NCBI GenBank assembly: GCA_024638915.1
Contig: JAHEJJ010000010.1
Span: 1 to 64,000 of the forward strand
DNA length: 64,000 nt
DNA from: Robiginitalea sp.
GTDB taxonomy: Bacteria > Bacteroidota > Bacteroidia > Flavobacteriales > Flavobacteriaceae
Direction: 5' to 3'
Shown: piece by piece, positions 54,556-62,401 of the stretch
Layout: each line of letters begins with the position of its first letter
How positions within the stretch are numbered: position 1 is the stretch's first letter
Made by a program: the position numbers and the translations under genes
Notes under the pieces: generated by a model
The model's input: only the letters and a program-made list of their open reading frames with translations
Databases searched by the model: none
What the model was told of the DNA's origin: nothing

Positions 54556-55818
54556 CTAGACTTTTTTGCCCTTCATCATTTTATTCCAATACAGGTAGGG
54601 AAGTCCATATTTCTTTAACATCCAGAGTCTCCAGTGTTCTTTGGCGCTATTGAACACCAACATCTGTTTTAATTTTGGATCGGGTGTGAAATTGTTGTTG
54701 TAATCGAACTCCGCAAGCACCATCTTGCCATAACCTGTGATAAGTGGACAAGAAGAATAGCCATCGTATGAGCTGTTTGTAGCTTCCTGGTTCTTGATCA
54801 GTTTTGAAATATTATCGACAACAATAGGTACCTGTTTTCGTATTGCGGCTCCGGTTTTGGCCGTCGGTAATGCAGCAACGTCACCCAGACTAAAGATATT
54901 CGGGTACTTATTATGCTGCATGGAATAATGGTCCACATCTACCCAGCCTCCTTCGTTGACCAGGTCTGAGTTTACAATAAAGTCCGGGGCCTTTTGTGGC
55001 GGAGCGAGGTGCAACATGTCGAATGGGATCGCTCGTACATTATCTTCAAGAGCTTGTTCTGACAAGGTATTTCCACTTTTTACTTCCTTGAACTTGTCTT
55101 CCGGGGCGGTATATCGAAAGTAAGCGATTCGTTTGTCTGGATCTATTTTAAAAGGAGCATAGTACGGTTTGAAATGCATTCCATACCTCTTCAATACCTT
55201 GGTAAGTGTTTCCTTGATTTCTTTCACACCAAAAATGACCGTTCCAGGGGTGGCAAAAATAACGTTGGTCTTGTTGGCAAGTCCGTTTTTCCTAAAATAA
55301 TCGGCTGAAAGGTAAGCGGTTTTCTGGGGAGCTCCACCACACTTAATCGGTGTGGTAGGCTGTGTGAATAGCGCATTGCCCCCATTAAAATTTTTCAGGA
55401 TTTCCCAGGTCTTTTCCGGATCGGTATAATTACTGCAAACTATTCCTTTCTCGAGAGCCTCTGGTAAGCCTTCGATCAGCTCTGGTGCCATCACCAGACC
55501 AGGTGCTACCACCAGGTAATCGTACCCGATGTCTCCGCTGTTTTGAGTAGTAACCACGTTGTTTGGGGCATCAAAACCTGTGGCATAATCTTTAATCCAA
55601 TCAACACCATCTGGAATAATCTTAGCCATGGGGCGCGCGGTTTTTTTATAGTCAAAGGTCCCGGCACCTACTAACGTCCAAGCGGGCTGATAATAGTGTG
55701 TGTCAGCAGGTTCTATAATAGCCAGATCGTAATTCTTGTCCAAACGCTTTAGTTGCGCGGCGGTCATTATTCCAGCGGTACCCCCGCCTATAATGAGGAT
55801 CTGATAATGCGATTTCAT
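54556..55818 (-). CDS. sqr: Sulfide:quinone oxidoreductase
   Basis: 420 residues. FAD motif GGGTAGIMTAAQL at 11-23. Three cysteines at 128, 160 and 357 match the catalytic set of SQR; the 32-residue spacing of the first two equals that of the Aquifex enzyme. IKCGGAPQKTAYLSADYFRK around Cys160 and SSCPLITGYGKMVLAEFDYN around Cys357 are family signatures, and IFSLGDVAALPTAKTGAAIR closes the FAD site. No signal peptide: a monotopic inner-membrane protein. It oxidises sulfide to a persulfide or polysulfide and reduces quinone. Divergent from the sulfite oxidase gene with a shared operator. Confidence 0.92.
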   Translation of the reverse strand: MKSHYQILIIGGGTAGIMTAAQLKRLDKNYDLAIIEPADTHYYQPAWTLVGAGTFDYKKTARPMAKIIPDGVDWIKDYATGFDAPNNVVTTQNSGDIGYDYLVVAPGLVMAPELIEGLPEALEKGIVCSNYTDPEKTWEILKNFNGGNALFTQPTTPIKCGGAPQKTAYLSADYFRKNGLANKTNVIFATPGTVIFGVKEIKETLTKVLKRYGMHFKPYYAPFKIDPDKRIAYFRYTAPEDKFKEVKSGNTLSEQALEDNVRAIPFDMLHLAPPQKAPDFIVNSDLVNEGGWVDVDHYSMQHNKYPNIFSLGDVAALPTAKTGAAIRKQVPIVVDNISKLIKNQEATNSSYDGYSSCPLITGYGKMVLAEFDYNNNFTPDPKLKQMLVFNSAKEHWRLWMLKKYGLPYLYWNKMMKGKKV

Positions 55819-55842: not shown

Positions 55843-55886
55843 TAAAATTAAGCAAGGAATACCATAGTAAGGGTAACAAAAGTTAC
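55843..55886 (-). promoter_or_regulatory. SQR promoter with upstream GTAAC-N4-GTTAC operator
   Basis: The palindrome GTAACAAAAGTTAC is at 55873-55886. Read on the minus strand, the -7-like element TAATTTTA (55850-55843) follows it after 22 nt. The palindrome centre is therefore about 41 nt before the expected transcription start, the class II activator position. On the plus strand a TATTTTAG element at 55910-55917 sits 23 nt from the other side, towards the sulfite oxidase gene, so one operator may serve both directions. Confidence 0.6.
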
Positions 55887-55940
55887 GTGTTTATCCTTTC
55901 AGATTTGATTATTTTAGTGGAATCAGGAAAATAGCTATTT

Positions 55941-57161
55941 GTGGAAAGACGAAAGTTTGTTAAAAGAAGTGTTCTGGGTTCGCTTACGGCAGCTTTGGGA
56001 ATGGACATTGTATTTGGATGGAAGATACCGGCAGGTTATACCCCGCTGGTCTTTCAGGATCCGGATCCCTATTCCATGTTTGGCAAGGACAAACAGATGG
56101 TGTTGCTCAATGACCGGCCATGGAATATGGAGGCTCAGGCTCATCTTTTAGACGATCCTGTCACGCCGGATAAATTTATGTTCATACGAAATAATGGTCT
56201 GGTACCTGAAGAGATCGATGTGGACAGCTGGACCCTTACCATCGATGGTGAGGCTGTACGGCAAAAAAAGGTCTATACCCTGAAGGATCTTAAATCCAGA
56301 TTTCCGGTTCATAGCTACCAGCTAACACTTGAATGCGGGGGTAATGGCCGGAGCGAATTCGACCCTGCTGCCAAAGGGAACCAATGGACGGTGGGTGCCG
56401 TCTCTTGTGCGGAATGGACGGGCATACGTTTAGGAGATCTCCTGGAAGAGGTAGGAATAAAAAATGAAGCCGTATATGTGGGTTATCATGCCGCTGATAT
56501 TCATCTGAGTCGGGATCCCAGCAAAGAACCGATATCGAGGGGCATACCCATCGCCAAAGCCATGCAAAAAGAAACACTGTTAGCCTTTGCCATGAATGGA
56601 AGGGATATTCCTATGGTACACGGACATCCTCTGCGCCTTATCGCCGGGGGCTGGCCGGCATCGGCCTCAGGTAAATGGCTCAACCGACTGAGTATTCGCG
56701 ATCAGGTCCACGACGGAGCCAAAATGACCGGAACCTCATACAGGGTCCCTTGTAATACCGTAGCACCCGGGGAAAAGGTAAAGGATGAAGATATGTGCAT
56801 AATAGAATCGATGCCCGTAAAATCACTGATTACCCATCCAAAATCCGGAGCAGTAATTAGCAATGGTAAGTCTCTTAAAATAAGGGGGCACGCCTGGGCC
56901 GGGGAATTGGAAGTGACCAAAATGGAATATTCTATTGATTTTGGATCCACCTGGACCTCATGCACTATAAATCAACCGCCCAATCGATTGGCATGGCAAC
57001 GGTTTGAAGCTAATGTAGCTTTTCCGAAAAAGGGATATTATGAAATTTGGAGTCGTGCCACCGATTCCAATGGTGTGAGCCAGCCCATGGTGCTGCCAGG
57101 CTGGAATCCGAAAGGATATTTGAATAATGCCTGCCACCGGATTGCCGTGAAAGTTTCTTAA
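55941..57161 (+). CDS. Molybdenum sulfite oxidase, Tat-exported (SorA/SorT-like)
   Basis: 406 residues from a GTG start. Tat signal (MERRKFVKRSVLGSLTAAL). Molybdopterin domain with the Mo ligand Cys132 in LECGGNGRSEF, TVGAVSCAEWTGIRL, SRGIPIAKAMQKETLLAFAM, and MVHGHPLRLIAGGWPASASG for cofactor and sulfite binding. The Mo-co dimerisation domain at about 290-400 (SLKIRGHAWAGELEVTKMEY) has an immunoglobulin-like fold. It oxidises sulfite to sulfate in the periplasm. The next gene, a monohaem cytochrome c, begins 3 nt after its stop and is the likely electron acceptor. Confidence 0.9.
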   Translation: MERRKFVKRSVLGSLTAALGMDIVFGWKIPAGYTPLVFQDPDPYSMFGKDKQMVLLNDRPWNMEAQAHLLDDPVTPDKFMFIRNNGLVPEEIDVDSWTLTIDGEAVRQKKVYTLKDLKSRFPVHSYQLTLECGGNGRSEFDPAAKGNQWTVGAVSCAEWTGIRLGDLLEEVGIKNEAVYVGYHAADIHLSRDPSKEPISRGIPIAKAMQKETLLAFAMNGRDIPMVHGHPLRLIAGGWPASASGKWLNRLSIRDQVHDGAKMTGTSYRVPCNTVAPGEKVKDEDMCIIESMPVKSLITHPKSGAVISNGKSLKIRGHAWAGELEVTKMEYSIDFGSTWTSCTINQPPNRLAWQRFEANVAFPKKGYYEIWSRATDSNGVSQPMVLPGWNPKGYLNNACHRIAVKVS

Positions 57162-57164
57162 GCG

Positions 57165-57650
57165 ATGGAAGATTACAGCAAATTTAAACAGCAAGCCCGG
57201 GCCATTTATAGGCTGATGTTGCTGGTACTGTTTTTTATGGCCATCACTGCAGCCGGTGTAGTCTATCTGGTTTCCAATCCCGATCTAAGCAGTTTCCGGT
57301 CTGGCTCTGCCGACATGGAATATGTTGAAATAAAAGAGGTTGAAGAAGACGATTTTGACAAAATCGTGAATGGAATACATCAGAGAACTGGTCTGGTTGA
57401 GGCCGAAGGGCTTATGGCAGTGGTTAATAATTGTACAAATTGTCATTCGGCTTTGCTGATCACTCAGAATAGAATGAACCACGAGCGTTGGCTAACGACA
57501 ATCCGGTGGATGCAGGAAACACAGAATTTGTGGGATTTGGGAAAGAATGAAGAAATTATCATCAACTATCTCGTATCGAATTACCCACCTGAAAAAAAGG
57601 GCCGTCGAGCGAGTTTGAAGGATATCGAATGGTATGAATACCAGGAATAA
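57165..57650 (+). CDS. Membrane-anchored monohaem cytochrome c, SorB-like
   Basis: 161 residues. One membrane helix near the N-terminus (RLMLLVLFFMAITAAGVVYL) anchors it with the rest in the periplasm. Haem site CTNCH at 90-94 (VVNNCTNCHSALL), with Met104 in the following helix as a possible distal ligand. The rest resembles the small cytochrome that accepts electrons from sulfite dehydrogenases. Position directly after the sulfite oxidase gene supports that pairing. The start of the next rhodanese gene overlaps its last 17 nt. Confidence 0.85.
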   Translation: MEDYSKFKQQARAIYRLMLLVLFFMAITAAGVVYLVSNPDLSSFRSGSADMEYVEIKEVEEDDFDKIVNGIHQRTGLVEAEGLMAVVNNCTNCHSALLITQNRMNHERWLTTIRWMQETQNLWDLGKNEEIIINYLVSNYPPEKKGRRASLKDIEWYEYQE

Positions 57651-58587
57651 AATAGCATTATTGTTAATAGTTCTGTCTTTTCTTAGTTGTAGGGAAAGGC
57701 AGCAAGGTATCATCGATACGGAGATTAGCCGGCATGCGCCATTGATCGAGGTCGAGCAATTGCAAGGGAGAATGGGTGAGGCAGGCTTGATGATCATCGA
57801 TATGAGAAAGCCCCAATACTACGAACAGGGGCATATTGAAGGAGCGGTGAATGTCTGGCGCGATCAGCTCGAAGATAGCAGTTACCCTTACGGAGGAATG
57901 ATGGCCACCAAAGAATCGGTTGAAAGGCTTTTAAGCCGTTTGGGAATTAGCAATAGACATACGTTGGTAATCTACGATGACCGAGGCTGTCCGGATGCGG
58001 CACGCTTGTGGTGGTTGCTAAAATTCTATAATTTTGAGCGGGTTTCGTTGCTTAATGGGGGCCTTGAAGCATGGCAGGGATCGGGCTTGAAACTCAGCAG
58101 AGATGCGGTCCGCTACACCCCAACAAGTTTTAAGTTTACGGATTACAGTAATATGCATATCTGGATCGATAAAGAAAGCCTAATAGCTGATATAAATGAT
58201 CAAAAAAGCAATATGATCCTTATCGACTCAAGAACAAAGGATGAATTCCTGGGAAGTACCCATAAAGCCGGGGCAAAAAAGGCCGGGCGCATACCTGGCA
58301 GTCTCCATATTGACTGGGCTGAAGCCGTAGACTTCAAGAATCACAAAAGGATCAAACCTGCTGAACAGCTTAGAAAAATCTATCATAAATACGGAGTAAC
58401 TGAAATAGATACCATAGTAGTTTACTGTCATTCAGGGTCGCGTTCTGCACTAACCACGTTTGTGCTAAGCGAAATTTTAGGATATCCTAATGTCAGGAAT
58501 TATGATGGATCCTGGACGGAGTGGAGTTATTTTGATCATTTACCATATCATCAAGACAGCCTGATAAAAAAAAATCACTATGAATAA
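57634..58587 (+). CDS. Two-domain sulfurtransferase (rhodanese), lipoprotein
   Basis: 317 residues. Lipoprotein signal ending SFLSC (Cys19). Two rhodanese domains, residues 35-155 and 175-315. The second has the active-site loop VVYCHSGSRS with Cys265. The first has YDDRGCPDAAR, where Asp replaces the catalytic Cys at the equivalent loop, so it is probably structural, as in most tandem rhodaneses. Likely role: periplasmic sulfane transfer, for example making thiosulfate from sulfite and persulfide. It overlaps the sterol-desaturase-like gene by 8 nt. Confidence 0.88.
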   Translation: MNTRNKIALLLIVLSFLSCRERQQGIIDTEISRHAPLIEVEQLQGRMGEAGLMIIDMRKPQYYEQGHIEGAVNVWRDQLEDSSYPYGGMMATKESVERLLSRLGISNRHTLVIYDDRGCPDAARLWWLLKFYNFERVSLLNGGLEAWQGSGLKLSRDAVRYTPTSFKFTDYSNMHIWIDKESLIADINDQKSNMILIDSRTKDEFLGSTHKAGAKKAGRIPGSLHIDWAEAVDFKNHKRIKPAEQLRKIYHKYGVTEIDTIVVYCHSGSRSALTTFVLSEILGYPNVRNYDGSWTEWSYFDHLPYHQDSLIKKNHYE

Positions 58588-59455
58588 ATACTTAGAAGCT
58601 TTTGCCGATGCTTTTTTAGGAAGCGTGGAATGGACCTGGAGGTCTATTCTTTTTGAGGTTCCCTGGTACACCAATTATTTCTGGGGACTTATTGCCATTT
58701 CCCTGCTGGTCTGGTTGCTTGAGATCATTTTCCCATGGAGAAAGAATCAGTCGATTTTCAGACGTGATTTCTGGCTCGACGCATTTTATATGTTTTTTAA
58801 TTTCTTCATGTTTTCCATTGCGATCAGCGGGTTTTACAAAGTACTTGAACTGATTTTTACCAATTTTGGCATCAACGCAAAAAGCCTTGCTGTTATAGAT
58901 CTGGCTACTCTCCCTACCTGGGTGCAATTGCTGTTGTTCTTTATTATACTGGACTTTGTTCAGTGGTTTACACATATTTTACTACACAAGTATAAGGTCC
59001 TTTGGAATTTTCACAAGGTTCATCACTCGGTCAAGGAAATGGGTTTCGCGGCCCACCTTAGATATCACTGGATGGAAAACATCTTTTATAAACCTTTAAA
59101 GGTATTCGGGGTGATGATACTGGGCGGTTTTGAACCCGAACAAGCCTATGTGGTCCATTTTGTGGCCATTGCCATTGGCCATTTTAATCATTCTAACATT
59201 AAGATCACCTGGGGGCCGCTAAAATATATTTTTAACAACCCTGTGATGCATTTATATCACCACTCCTACATTCTGCCCAAGGGATCGTATGGGGTTAACT
59301 TTGGTATTAGTTTGAGTCTGTGGGACTATATATTCAAAACAAATTATATACCTGAAGACAGCGGCACCATAGAACTGGGGTTCCCTGGTGACGAAAGATT
59401 TCCACAAGACTTCCTGCACCAGAACATATATGGTTTCCGCAAGGAAAAAGATTAA
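58580..59455 (+). CDS. Sterol desaturase/fatty acid hydroxylase superfamily membrane protein
   Basis: 291 residues with four or more membrane helices (WGLIAISLLVWLLEIIF; FMFFNFFMFSIAISG; LLLFFIILDFVQWFTHILLH). The di-iron histidine clusters are present: HILLHKYKVLWNFHKVHHSV supplies HxxxH and HxxHH, and LYHHSY another HH pair, as in the PF04116 family. Substrate unknown. It is the fourth gene of the sulfite oxidase operon by overlap (8 nt), which is unusual for a lipid enzyme and suggests a link to the redox chain or membrane. Confidence 0.85.
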   Translation: MNKYLEAFADAFLGSVEWTWRSILFEVPWYTNYFWGLIAISLLVWLLEIIFPWRKNQSIFRRDFWLDAFYMFFNFFMFSIAISGFYKVLELIFTNFGINAKSLAVIDLATLPTWVQLLLFFIILDFVQWFTHILLHKYKVLWNFHKVHHSVKEMGFAAHLRYHWMENIFYKPLKVFGVMILGGFEPEQAYVVHFVAIAIGHFNHSNIKITWGPLKYIFNNPVMHLYHHSYILPKGSYGVNFGISLSLWDYIFKTNYIPEDSGTIELGFPGDERFPQDFLHQNIYGFRKEKD

Positions 59456-59480
59456 CCAAAAGATAGGATTCCAAGCGTGG

Positions 59481-60161
59481 TTAGCTCAGGATAAAATCGG
59501 CGGCCATTTGTGCGTGCAAATGAGTGGTAGGGATCAACGGCACCGTTGTGTCTTCCTGAGATATGAGTATGGGCAATTCTGTACATCCGAGAATAACCCC
59601 TTCGGCCCCTCTTTCTTTTAGCAACTCGATCTGCCTGAGATAAAATTCCCTGGCTTCATCAGAGAATATACCACGGGTAAGCTCCTTTGATACAAAAAAG
59701 TGAGACCTGGCGATCCCCATCGCTTCTGGTATAAGGGTTTTGATCTTGTAATGAGACTCAAGGTAGGAGGGTATAAACTCTCCTGTCATGGTAGGTTTAT
59801 TTCCCAACAGGCCTAAGATCTTTAGATCATTCCCCGAGGCCGATCTACCGATGGCATCGGCGATATGCAAAATGGGAATATCGATCAGTGGTTGAACGTG
59901 TTGATATACCGTGTGGGGAGTGTTCGCGCAGATTACAATGGCCTGGGCTCCTGCTTTTTGTAATATTCGGGACACCTCAAGGTATTTCCTGTTGATCTTT
60001 TCCCAGTCTTGTGATCTCATGATCTCGATGTTCAGACTGTAGAGTATAAGTGGTGGATTCCCTTCTGTACCTATCTTTTCTGAGACCAGACTATTGATCA
60101 GGCGATAATAGTCGAGCGTAGAATGCCATGAAGTTCCTCCTATGAGTCCTATCGTTTTCAT
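59481..60161 (-). CDS. Aspartate/glutamate racemase family protein
   Basis: 226 residues. Active-site cysteines Cys78 (VICANTPH) and Cys193 (LGCTELPIL) occupy the two-base positions of the Asp/Glu racemase fold. Start motif KTIGLIGGTSWHSTLDYY is typical. PLIDIPILHIADAIG and LGLLGNKPTMTGEFI complete the core. It may racemise aspartate or another amino acid in the cytoplasm. A link to the surrounding sulfur genes is not evident. Convergent with the desaturase gene. Confidence 0.88.
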   Translation of the reverse strand: MKTIGLIGGTSWHSTLDYYRLINSLVSEKIGTEGNPPLILYSLNIEIMRSQDWEKINRKYLEVSRILQKAGAQAIVICANTPHTVYQHVQPLIDIPILHIADAIGRSASGNDLKILGLLGNKPTMTGEFIPSYLESHYKIKTLIPEAMGIARSHFFVSKELTRGIFSDEAREFYLRQIELLKERGAEGVILGCTELPILISQEDTTVPLIPTTHLHAQMAADFILS

Positions 60162-60233
60162 TAAATCAAAAGTTCGCTTACCAAGTCATCTCAACATTAT
60201 TTTAAGGATCGGTCCATTAATTTAAAAGATCTA

Positions 60234-60578
60234 CTAGCGCCAGTTCAGGATTCCTCCTTTAAGATCATAGATTTTTTTGAAGCCCATATCGATCAGCTTC
60301 CGAGCGGCCTTGGCACTCCTGGCCCCTGAACGGCAGTAGATATATACCGGTTTTTCCTTGTCAAGTACCTCAAAACCCTCCACAAATTGTTTGCTTTTGT
60401 GGTAATCTATATTTCTGGCATTCCCGAGATGACCACTTCGGTATTCCCGGGGCGTTCTCACATCGACCAATTGTACATCTTTATTAATTACTGCCTCCTT
60501 GTATTCTGTGACGTCCAATACCACAAATTCTTCAACTTGTTGTTTTTGGGGACTGAAAAAAGAATTGAAAAAAGTCAT
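60234..60578 (-). CDS. Single-domain rhodanese
   Basis: 114 residues. Rhodanese core with Cys82 in the active-site loop YIYCRSGARSAKAARKL, DVRTPREYRSGHLGNARNID at the second strand, and GFKKIYDLKGGILNW at the end. It has no strong signal peptide, although the N-terminus MTFFNSFFS is weakly hydrophobic. It lies 89 nt after the persulfide dioxygenase gene and probably works with it in persulfide handling. Confidence 0.9.
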   Translation of the reverse strand: MTFFNSFFSPQKQQVEEFVVLDVTEYKEAVINKDVQLVDVRTPREYRSGHLGNARNIDYHKSKQFVEGFEVLDKEKPVYIYCRSGARSAKAARKLIDMGFKKIYDLKGGILNWR

Positions 60579-60598
60579 CTCTTAAAAAATTTAAAATT

Positions 60599-60634
60599 GG
60601 AAGGCGATGATAATTTACCTTTATCATCACCTCC
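60599..60634 (-). terminator. Hairpin between the persulfide dioxygenase and rhodanese genes
   Basis: Minus-strand GGAGGTGATGATAA pairs with TTATCATCGCCTTCC, allowing one G-U pair, around a short loop of AGGTAAA. It is followed by an A/T-rich stretch with a T-run (AATTTTAAATTTTTT). This may attenuate transcription into the downstream rhodanese gene. Confidence 0.55.
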
Positions 60635-60667
60635 CATAACAACCAACTAAAACAATATTAACCAATC

Positions 60668-62086
60668 TTACAACATGGTAGTTGGAGCGATATATTCCGT
60701 TAACTCTACTTTAGTTTCGTCTTTTATACCATTGATTCCATCAGCTATATCAACAAAATTTTCCCAACCTCTAGATTTGAGTATAGATGAGGCAATCATG
60801 CTGCGATAACCACCTTCACAATGGATGTAGAAGGGTTTGTCTTTCGGAAACTGAGCCAGATGCTGGTTCATCTCATTCAATGGTATATTGACTGCACCTA
60901 CAACATGCTCAGAATCGAATTCACTTTTCTTTCTTACATCGAAAACCAATGTGTTTTCTGTTGTAAATATTTTTTCGAATCCCTTTGGAGAAATTTGATT
61001 GACGCGATCTGTTTCCTTTCCGGCTTTTCTCCAGCGCTCATAGCCACCTTCCAGATAACCCAGGGTATTATCGTAGCCCACACGCGACAATCTGGTGATG
61101 GCCTCTTCTTCTTTGCCAGCCTCGGTGATCAACAAAATAGGTTGTTTCACATCGGGTATCATCTCCCCTACCCATTGGGCATATTTTCCTTCTAAAGCTA
61201 TATTTATGCTGTTCGGGACAAATCCTCTGGCGAATACTTTTTCATTCCGTGTATCGAGCATAAGCGCATCTGTTTCATTGGCTGCTGCTTCAAAGGCTTC
61301 TGGCGAAAGAGGTTTTTCACCCCGCTCCATAATAGTATCCAGGCTTTCATATCCCTGAATGTTCATCAGTACATTCTGAGGAAAGTATCCCGGAGGAGTG
61401 GTAAGACCCGTAAGTAATTCCTTAATGAATTCCTCTTTGGTCATGTCTGCGCGCAAGGCGTAGTTTATTTCTTTCTGGTGACCCAAGGTATCCTGTGTTT
61501 GGTCACTCATCATTTTACCGCAGGCCGAACCAGCACCGTGGTTGGGATAGATGATCAAATCATCACTGAGAGGCATAATCCGATTCCTCAGGGAATCAAA
61601 AAGAAGTCCGGCCAGTTTTTCCTCCGTCAAATCTGAAACAACGTGCTGGGCCAGGTCTGGTCGTCCTACATCTCCTATGAAAAGGGTATCTCCTGTGATG
61701 ATACCATGCTCCTCGCCTTTCTCATCGATCAGCAAGTATGTAGTACTCTCCATGGTATGACCGGGAGTATGAATCACCTTAACTTTATAATCTCCTACTT
61801 CGAAAACCTGGTTATCTTCTGCAACTATAGCCTCATATCGAGGCTTGGCCGTCGGACCAAAGACAATTTGTGCCCCGGTCTTCTTTTGGAGATCGAGGTG
61901 TCCACTGACAAAATCGGCATGAAAATGCGTTTCGAATACATATTTAATCCTAGCGTTGTCTTTTTGAGCTCGTTCAATATAAGGTCCTACCTCCCTAAGC
62001 GGATCAAAAATGGCAGCTTCGCCATTGCTTTCGAGGTAATATGCGGCATGTGCTAAACATCCTGTATAAATCTGTTCAATCTTCAT
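60668..62086 (-). CDS. CstB-like persulfide dioxygenase-rhodanese fusion
   Basis: 472 residues in three parts. Residues 1-240: metallo-beta-lactamase domain with the ETHE1-type metal motif HFHADF (His54, His56, Asp58), GHTMESTTYLL and GDTLFIGDVGRPD. About 255-355: a rhodanese fold whose active loop is LLITEAGKEEE, with no Cys, hence inactive. About 365-472: a rhodanese domain with Cys423 in YIHCEGGYRS. This is the arrangement of Staphylococcus aureus CstB, which oxidises persulfides to sulfite and then makes thiosulfate. Cytoplasmic. An upstream GTAAC-N4-GTTAC operator matches that of the SQR gene. Confidence 0.9.
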   Translation of the reverse strand: MKIEQIYTGCLAHAAYYLESNGEAAIFDPLREVGPYIERAQKDNARIKYVFETHFHADFVSGHLDLQKKTGAQIVFGPTAKPRYEAIVAEDNQVFEVGDYKVKVIHTPGHTMESTTYLLIDEKGEEHGIITGDTLFIGDVGRPDLAQHVVSDLTEEKLAGLLFDSLRNRIMPLSDDLIIYPNHGAGSACGKMMSDQTQDTLGHQKEINYALRADMTKEEFIKELLTGLTTPPGYFPQNVLMNIQGYESLDTIMERGEKPLSPEAFEAAANETDALMLDTRNEKVFARGFVPNSINIALEGKYAQWVGEMIPDVKQPILLITEAGKEEEAITRLSRVGYDNTLGYLEGGYERWRKAGKETDRVNQISPKGFEKIFTTENTLVFDVRKKSEFDSEHVVGAVNIPLNEMNQHLAQFPKDKPFYIHCEGGYRSMIASSILKSRGWENFVDIADGINGIKDETKVELTEYIAPTTML

Positions 62087-62401
62087 CTTAAAAAACTTAT
62101 TTGGTTTATAGTGATCATAAAATTATCCCCATTGTCAAAACTATCCCGTAACCTAGGTTACACAGTTCGGTAACACAGCCATAAGGTCGTTTAATAACCA
62201 TCTGATATTGAATCATTTATAAAAGCAGATTCGGGTTGGATATCGTGTTGATCTGAAATATGATTTTTGTCATAATCCGATCATGTTTTGGCTGATAATT
62301 TCGCCTCAGATATTTGTAAAAACCAGCAACATGTGAATACCATTTCACGAAATACCTGCTCTTTTTGGGGTAGGTTTTTTGTTGCATAAATCATAAGACC
62401 T
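62087..62401. other. 315-bp divergent intergenic region between the persulfide dioxygenase and OmpP1 genes
   Basis: It holds the palindromic operator and promoter at 62118-62161 near the minus-strand gene. On the FadL side I see TTTTGG near 62286 and TATTTG near 62309 as a possible but imperfect promoter. No reading frame with coding character is present. Confidence 0.45.
62118..62161 (-). promoter_or_regulatory. Persulfide dioxygenase promoter with GTAAC-N4-GTTAC operator
   Basis: GTAACCTAGGTTAC at 62148-62161 is a perfect 14-bp palindrome. On the minus strand TAATTTTA (62125-62118) follows it after 22 nt, the same sequence and spacing as before the SQR gene; GATCACTA follows both -7 elements. 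The start codon is 31 nt downstream of the -7 element. Confidence 0.6.

Follow-up and report, generated by a model that had tools for sequence, protein, structure and literature searches.

A conserved operator–promoter element at sulfide-oxidation genes of Robiginitalea and a candidate Crp/Fnr-family regulator

We analysed a 64,000-nucleotide stretch of DNA (the window; assembly GCA_024638915.1, contig JAHEJJ010000010.1, positions 1 to 64,000, here contig C51) from Robiginitalea sp., in which the genes for a sulfide:quinone oxidoreductase (SQR) and a persulfide dioxygenase (PDO) share the same upstream arrangement, an operator of the form GTAAC-N4-GTTAC followed at a fixed distance of 22 nt by a promoter box. 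The operator and its spacing recur across the Flavobacteriaceae, and the protein that reads them is most likely a Crp/Fnr-family regulator encoded on a different contig of the same genome (C77). We consider it probable that this C77-type protein activates the sulfide-oxidation genes from these operators, in the manner of a class II activator. The elements concerned in the window are as follows.

55873–55886: operator GTAAC-AAAA-GTTAC, GTAACAAAAGTTAC, between SQR and the divergent SorA-like operon
55843–55850, minus strand: −7-type promoter box TAATTTTA of SQR, 22 nt past the operator, an offset kept in relatives
62148–62161: operator GTAACCTAGGTTAC of the PDO promoter
62118–62125, minus strand: −7-type promoter box TAATTTTA of PDO, 22 nt past the operator
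55909–55916, plus strand: TTATTTTA, a weaker −7 box candidate for the SorA-like operon, facing the SQR operator at offset 22 with one mismatch

Operators and promoter boxes in the Robiginitalea genome

On the minus strand, both operators are followed by exactly 22 nt and then by TAATTTTA, just as an initial annotation of the window had described, and the low end of the operator lies 55 nt from the ATG of SQR and 62 nt from that of PDO. The same annotation had called both operators perfect 14-bp palindromes, which is true of 62148–62161; the operator at 55873–55886 has perfect 5-bp arms around a non-palindromic AAAA spacer. A further sequence, GATCACTA, said to follow both octamers, is indeed present at both promoters, starting 4 nt after one octamer and 1 nt after the other. 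It was found at 0 of the 98 exact sites of named relatives described below, and we therefore excluded it from the element.

Across the assembly (3.04 Mb in 81 contigs) there are five exact GTAACN4GTTAC sites, a number equalled by the reversed control, and three of the five are inside 10.4 kb on C51. The third of these, at 66211–66224, lies 2.2 kb past the end of the window, beyond the reach of any reading confined to it; it stands 22 nt before the box TATTTTTA and 60 nt upstream of a gene for a SulP transporter (TIGR00815, 491.7 bits against a cut-off of 380). Each of the three C51 sites is placed 22 nt before a TAnnTTTA box, that of SQR, PDO or SulP. The full architecture, comprising the palindrome, 22 nt and a TAnnTTTR box, occurs exactly four times genome-wide and never in the reversed control, with 0.004 occurrences expected under a first-order Markov model built from the window, which bears out the earlier judgement that the resemblance of the two promoters is hard to attribute to chance. 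When up to two mismatches were allowed, the genome gave 9 matches against 13 for the control, indicating that the information lies in exact sites only.

The fourth occurrence of the full architecture (C60:40086–40128) lies between the citrate synthase gene and glgA, carries TAATTTTA at 22 nt and points antisense into the 3′ end of glgA. This stretch could be aligned in five of eight close genomes, with an exact site and box in 0 of the five; in G088, the sole genome of the same genus, the site has one mismatch and is without the box. We take C60:40086, which is not kept there, to be probably a chance or lineage-specific occurrence. The fifth palindrome (C65:45296) is inside a permease open reading frame (ORF) and does not belong to the sites with a box.

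The SQR operator also lies 68 nt upstream of the divergent SorA-like ORF, and the corresponding distance in relatives is 68 nt in locus L022, 69 nt in L028 and 68 nt in L029. In L026 the site, which has one mismatch, lies 31 nt from the start as listed for the longest frame, and in L072 the site nearest to SorA is at 64 nt, again with one mismatch. Because of this near-constant distance, it is plausible that one operator serves both SQR and SorA, although strict boxes at exactly 22 nt on both sides are present at only 1 of the 125 palindromes in the 80 named loci described below. We also observed a palindrome at L034:7959–7972, between a DUF983-like gene and a divergent hemN-looking gene, that is flanked on either side by boxes and ORFs and is possibly a bidirectional promoter.

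Conservation and target genes in the Flavobacteriaceae

Using PDO as the query, we gathered 80 named loci, a lower bound on the relatives that exist; the nearest comes from an uncultured Eudoraea whose PDO is 91% identical. These loci contain 125 palindromes in 1.495 Mb, and 98 TAnnTTTR boxes lie at offset 22 from them, compared with at most 3 boxes at any other offset from 0 to 60. The reversed motif yielded 14 site-strands, 0 of them with a box at 22. At least one exact site is present in 37 of the 80 loci. Among 79 intact PDO promoters (one locus, without a long intact ORF, was dropped), 40 combine a box at exactly 22 nt with a palindrome carrying no more than one mismatch, and 0 have the box at 16–21 or 23–29 nt; the reversed motif gave 0 at offset 22 and 2 at offset 26. 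Swapped-arm and GTGAC controls gave 8 and 12 at offset 22; given the one mismatch allowed, these patterns can match true sites. The 22-nt spacing is also found upstream of SQR, SulP, rhodanese and regulator genes, and its recurrence before SQR and PDO genes across the family agrees with what the initial annotation had proposed to look for. Two of the records gathered, L089 and L092, are labelled Bifidobacterium breve and Comamonas sp.; their PDOs are Bacteroidota-like (64–65% identical), and these metagenome-bin names are probably wrong.

In a logo built from 127 distinct sites, T reaches 0.80 at position −1 and the palindrome is directly followed by TG (0.55 and 0.60). This TG falls about 20 nt upstream of the box, where a −33 element would be expected, and the −33 region is only weakly conserved.

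Extending the scan to whole genomes, we found the exact architecture in 233 of 299 Flavobacteriaceae genomes, whereas the reversed control matched in 12 of them (14 matches, counted by eye). In the wider class, also counted by eye, 62 of 296 genomes match, including 56 of the 285 outside the family, and the reversed control gave 22 matches in 20 of 296. Given this difference between the family and its surroundings, the operator–promoter element is mainly a Flavobacteriaceae feature.

To describe the genes behind the operator, we carried out a census of 90 loci, made up of 30 best-match loci and 60 stretches picked among the listed family matches, in which 90 distinct exact sites were present, 85 of them with a downstream ORF; the ORFs were clustered with BLAST and representatives were named by Pfam. 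The downstream ORFs encode PDO or rhodanese proteins (21), SQR-like proteins (8), TauE/SafE (8), SulP (6) and SorA-like proteins (2), which brings the genes for sulfur oxidation or sulfur-anion transport to 45 of 85; the others include several smaller classes. This content supports the earlier prediction of a sulfide- or persulfide-responsive regulon. The motif also stands before genes with no known tie to sulfide, among them those for TolC-type outer-membrane efflux proteins (17 of 85; L115, L117–L119, L121, L124, L128, L130, L136, L137 and others). In L073:15252–20852, the operator is followed by a run that we read from its ORFs as TolC, a membrane-fusion protein and an RND pump. Small proteins of about 120 residues were observed behind both operator kinds, GTAAC and the GTGAC variant treated below (L131, L140, L152, L203, L204, L208, L212, L217); several have a conserved CxNKxxPELxCxGKC stretch, and the two that were scanned gave no Pfam match.

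The genes of the window itself are listed below. SQR and the SorA-like protein were named from their best family matches, each under the curated cut-off.

54556–55818, minus strand: SQR; best NCBIfam match NF049943, type III SQR, 227 bits, below the cut-off of 525
55941–57161, plus strand: SorA/SoxC-like sulfite dehydrogenase; PF00174 and PF03404; NCBIfam SorA 225 bits, below the cut-off of 600
57165–57650, plus strand: small protein with a CxxCH haem-binding sequence motif, without a family match
57634–58587, plus strand: two-domain rhodanese, mercaptopyruvate/thiosulfate sulfurtransferase-like
58580–59455, plus strand: fatty-acid-hydroxylase-family membrane protein, ending the SorA-like run
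60234–60578, minus strand: single-domain rhodanese, downstream of PDO
60668–62086, minus strand: PDO with a metallo-beta-lactamase domain and two rhodanese stretches, which we take to be CstB-like

The SorA-like, CxxCH, two-domain rhodanese and fatty-acid-hydroxylase genes form a tight plus-strand run, in which the CxxCH protein probably serves the sulfite dehydrogenase as its cytochrome c, and homologues of the fatty-acid-hydroxylase-family protein stand directly after the operator in L111 and L170. As annotated from these family matches, the window encodes a sulfide-to-sulfate pathway.

A candidate regulator and its rivals

In line with the initial annotation, the window encodes no candidate for the regulator of these sites. 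The genome has five proteins with a cyclic-nucleotide-monophosphate (cNMP)-binding domain and four with a Crp-type helix-turn-helix above cut-off, and the suggested search for a conserved Crp/Fnr gene led to one of them, a protein of 211 residues at C77:2421–3056. Its matches to PF00027 (30.7 bits) and PF13545 (35.1 bits) are both above cut-off, placing it by profile in the Crp/Fnr superfamily. It was rejected as CRP itself (PRK11753, 47.8 bits against a cut-off of 266) and as FNR (PRK11161, 26.6 bits against 228), the N-terminal Fe-S cysteines of the latter being absent. A second SulP gene and a second PDO gene adjoin the regulator gene (L020:2421–7312), and in many named loci its orthologues lie about 1 kb before PDO.

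Co-occurrence links this protein to the sites. A C77 homologue (E ≤ 1e-20) is present in 275 of the 299 family genomes, 15 of these best matches being distant (E > 1e-50). Of the 275 genomes that encode such a homologue, 232 have exact sites, and of the other 24 genomes 1 does (Fisher p 5e-16, with kinship ignored), a comparison tempered by the fact that many of the 24 genomes are small and four of them were identified by elimination. Residue 181 divides these regulators into a V type (Val) and an E type (Glu), and the PDO promoter bears the site in 28 of the 33 loci where the regulator is V-type, in 1 of 8 where it is E-type and in 11 of 38 where the locus has none. Together, these observations make the C77 protein the most likely regulator of the sites.

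Within the V-type proteins, three cysteines are highly conserved (Cys78 in 35 of 35, Cys84 in 35 of 35 and Cys85 in 34 of 35, counting the Robiginitalea protein and some near-identical ones), and 31 of the 35 proteins have three cysteines in total. The E-type proteins keep the first two in 9 of 9 and 7 of 9 cases and the third in 0 of 9. Cys78 and Cys84 thereby supply the V-type proteins with the conserved cysteine pair that is characteristic of persulfide sensors. By alignment, and with the Crp positions as we take them to be, these residues fall at the nucleotide-binding cassette of Crp. A structure model of the Maribacter orthologue (L027) shows a Crp/Fnr fold, with a mean predicted local distance difference test score of 84, a predicted template-modelling score of 0.60 and corresponding Foldseek matches; its confidence is lowest at residues 80–82, between its cysteines 77 and 83.

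In the mechanism that we propose, a C77-type dimer would bind the two arms of the operator, centred some 41 bp upstream of the expected transcript start and overlapping the −33 element, and would recruit RNA polymerase at the TAnnTTTR box. This placement would be that of a class II activator. So bound, the dimer would switch on sulfide-to-sulfate oxidation through SQR, PDO and its rhodanese, the SorA-like operon and the SulP anion transporter. The signal would be persulfide or another form of sulfane sulfur, read by Cys78, Cys84 and Cys85; the targets dispose of persulfide and sulfite, which makes a persulfide-read thiol switch the most economical signal, and the conservation of the three cysteines suggests such a switch. 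In its widest form, the proposal is of a Flavobacteriaceae-wide persulfide- or polysulfide-sensing Crp/Fnr activator, with a C-x5-CC switch in place of the cyclic-nucleotide pocket, that runs SQR, PDO, sulfite dehydrogenase, TauE/SafE, SulP and rhodanese genes together with RND efflux; here we judge the chances to be evenly balanced.

Besides the composition of the homologue-less group, several observations weigh against control of sulfide oxidation by the C77-type protein. The TolC-type genes, together with peroxiredoxin (4) and cytochrome c (4) genes in the census, mean that the signal may be wider than sulfide, perhaps redox. No palindrome with up to one mismatch was found in the 20 kb examined around the C77 regulator gene, and exact sites are absent from 43 of the 275 homologue-bearing genomes. 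A sister motif complicates the pairing further. GTGACN4GTCAC occurs at the same spacing in 64 of the 299 family genomes, with 1 control match, and precedes PDO, SQR-like or YgaP-like genes; in clade-B loci it lies upstream of SQR or PDO. We considered a rule by which Val181 would go with GTAAC and Glu181 with GTGAC, and rejected it, as 12 genomes picked for their GTGAC sites encode 13 V-type and 2 E-type proteins. A GTGAC site was read in 6 of these 12 genomes and stands before a PDO gene; such sites occur in V-type genomes as well, which counts against a simple pairing of paralogue and motif. GTGAC sites at YgaP-like genes suggest a sister regulon. At L021:3129–3501 (contig C6), GTGACCTAAGTCAC lies behind a C6-type crp gene and ahead of a small gene whose product resembles YgaP-like membrane proteins, and GTGAC sites precede similar small ORFs in L207, L210, L211 and L216, with PF11127 found in L216, the only one scanned.

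The operator itself has a published history, which the initial annotation overlooked: GTAAC-N4-GTTAC, with the consensus GTAACnnnnGTTAC, was described in 2005 as the motif of HcpR2, a regulator tied to hcp that, in the available text of that study, occurs in Bacteroides and has Pro181 in the recognition helix of most members and Ser or Gln in three species (PMC1274295). The sites could belong to an HcpR2 orthologue, with the whole regulon, sulfur genes included, answering nitric oxide or nitrosative stress, and the prediction that Desulfovibrio HcpR also controls sulfate-reduction genes (PMC545781, available part) would fit such a reading. We regard it as unlikely. The C77-type protein shares with HcpR2 the Crp/Fnr family and an identical operator, to which it is linked by co-occurrence, but hcp is absent from its genome (PF03063, 0 matches) and residue 181 is Val in the protein itself and in all 35 V-type proteins; two of the three features compared thus speak against its being HcpR2. 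In addition, the Prismane family had no match among 20 scanned representatives of the downstream genes. The phmmer matches of the regulator in the PDB (E ≤ 0.001) include no molecule named HcpR.

It is similarly improbable that another Crp/Fnr paralogue, for example of the C6 type or the FNR-like C66, binds these sites while the C77-type gene merely travels with the cluster. The five cNMP-binding-domain proteins of the genome offer such candidates, and the C6 protein has a CRP-like RE pair and a gene that adjoins the GTGACN4GTCAC site described above. The sites, however, track V-type over E-type genes as well as the presence of C77 homologues, and the recognition helix of the two FNR-like proteins differs.

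Repression, in which a dimer overlapping the promoter would leave it upon modification of its cysteines by persulfide, in the manner of CstR or SqrR, appears more doubtful still. The fixed 22-nt offset corresponds to the position of a class II activator, and the weakly conserved −33 region is as expected of activator-dependent promoters. What favours repression is that CstR and SqrR/BigR, persulfide sensors already known, act as repressors (PMC9774590, available part). A chance likeness of the two promoters, for which the equal genome-wide counts of the palindrome alone and its reversed control (five each) might be cited, has a negligible probability, being refuted by the conservation of the spacing, seen at many sites where the controls give few or none.

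Relation to known systems and meaning for the family

Activation by the C77-type protein would resemble class II control by E. coli CRP and FNR in its dimer on two arms, its predicted fixed centre near −41 and the common Crp/Fnr fold. It would differ in that the C77 protein scores far below the cut-offs for both and has C-x5-CC at the nucleotide pocket. The closest solved sequence is 3dv8 (E 1.1e-15), a structural genomics entry for a Crp/Fnr protein from Eubacterium rectale, named only as a putative regulator; it shares the C-x5-C spacing. Like the C77-type protein as proposed here, CstR, SqrR/BigR and FisR control sulfide-oxidation genes, but none is of the Crp/Fnr family: FisR is of the sigma-54 type. 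CstR belongs to the CsoR family and SqrR/BigR to the ArsR family, with dithiol sensing in CstR and SqrR, and in the available text of the persulfide-sensor review that describes them alongside other sensors Crp appears in the reference list only (PMC9774590).

A Crp-like protein of A. baumannii, A1S_1182, is persulfidated in sulfide-treated cells; it differs from the C77 type in being about 50% identical to E. coli CRP and, in the available part of that report, is without a link to a sulfide-oxidation regulon (PMC7315123). In marine sediment, Bacteroidota sqr and pdo transcripts rise with sulfide, in a study whose main text, as available, does not contain the word regulator (PMC12345210), and in the accessible part of a 2025 review FNR figures as an oxygen sensor (PMC12170894). 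By title, we found no Crp/Fnr regulon of SQR or PDO in Bacteroidota in the open-licence PMC literature, a search that the slash spelling "Crp/Fnr" may escape, and the parts of that literature examined gave no description of the control of sulfide oxidation in this phylum. The motif and class II control by Crp/Fnr proteins are known; what is new here is the regulator subfamily and the target pathway, and the C77-type regulator with its likely sulfur-sensing cysteines seems to be undescribed.

The proposal is directly testable, since the operator is defined, the promoter geometry fixed and a candidate regulator named. The operator pattern found in 233 of 299 genomes predicts further members of the regulon, among them RND pump, peroxiredoxin, DUF983 and FA_hydroxylase genes. 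If the cysteines of the C77-type protein sense persulfide, the Crp/Fnr fold would join the persulfide sensors, and would do so as an activator.

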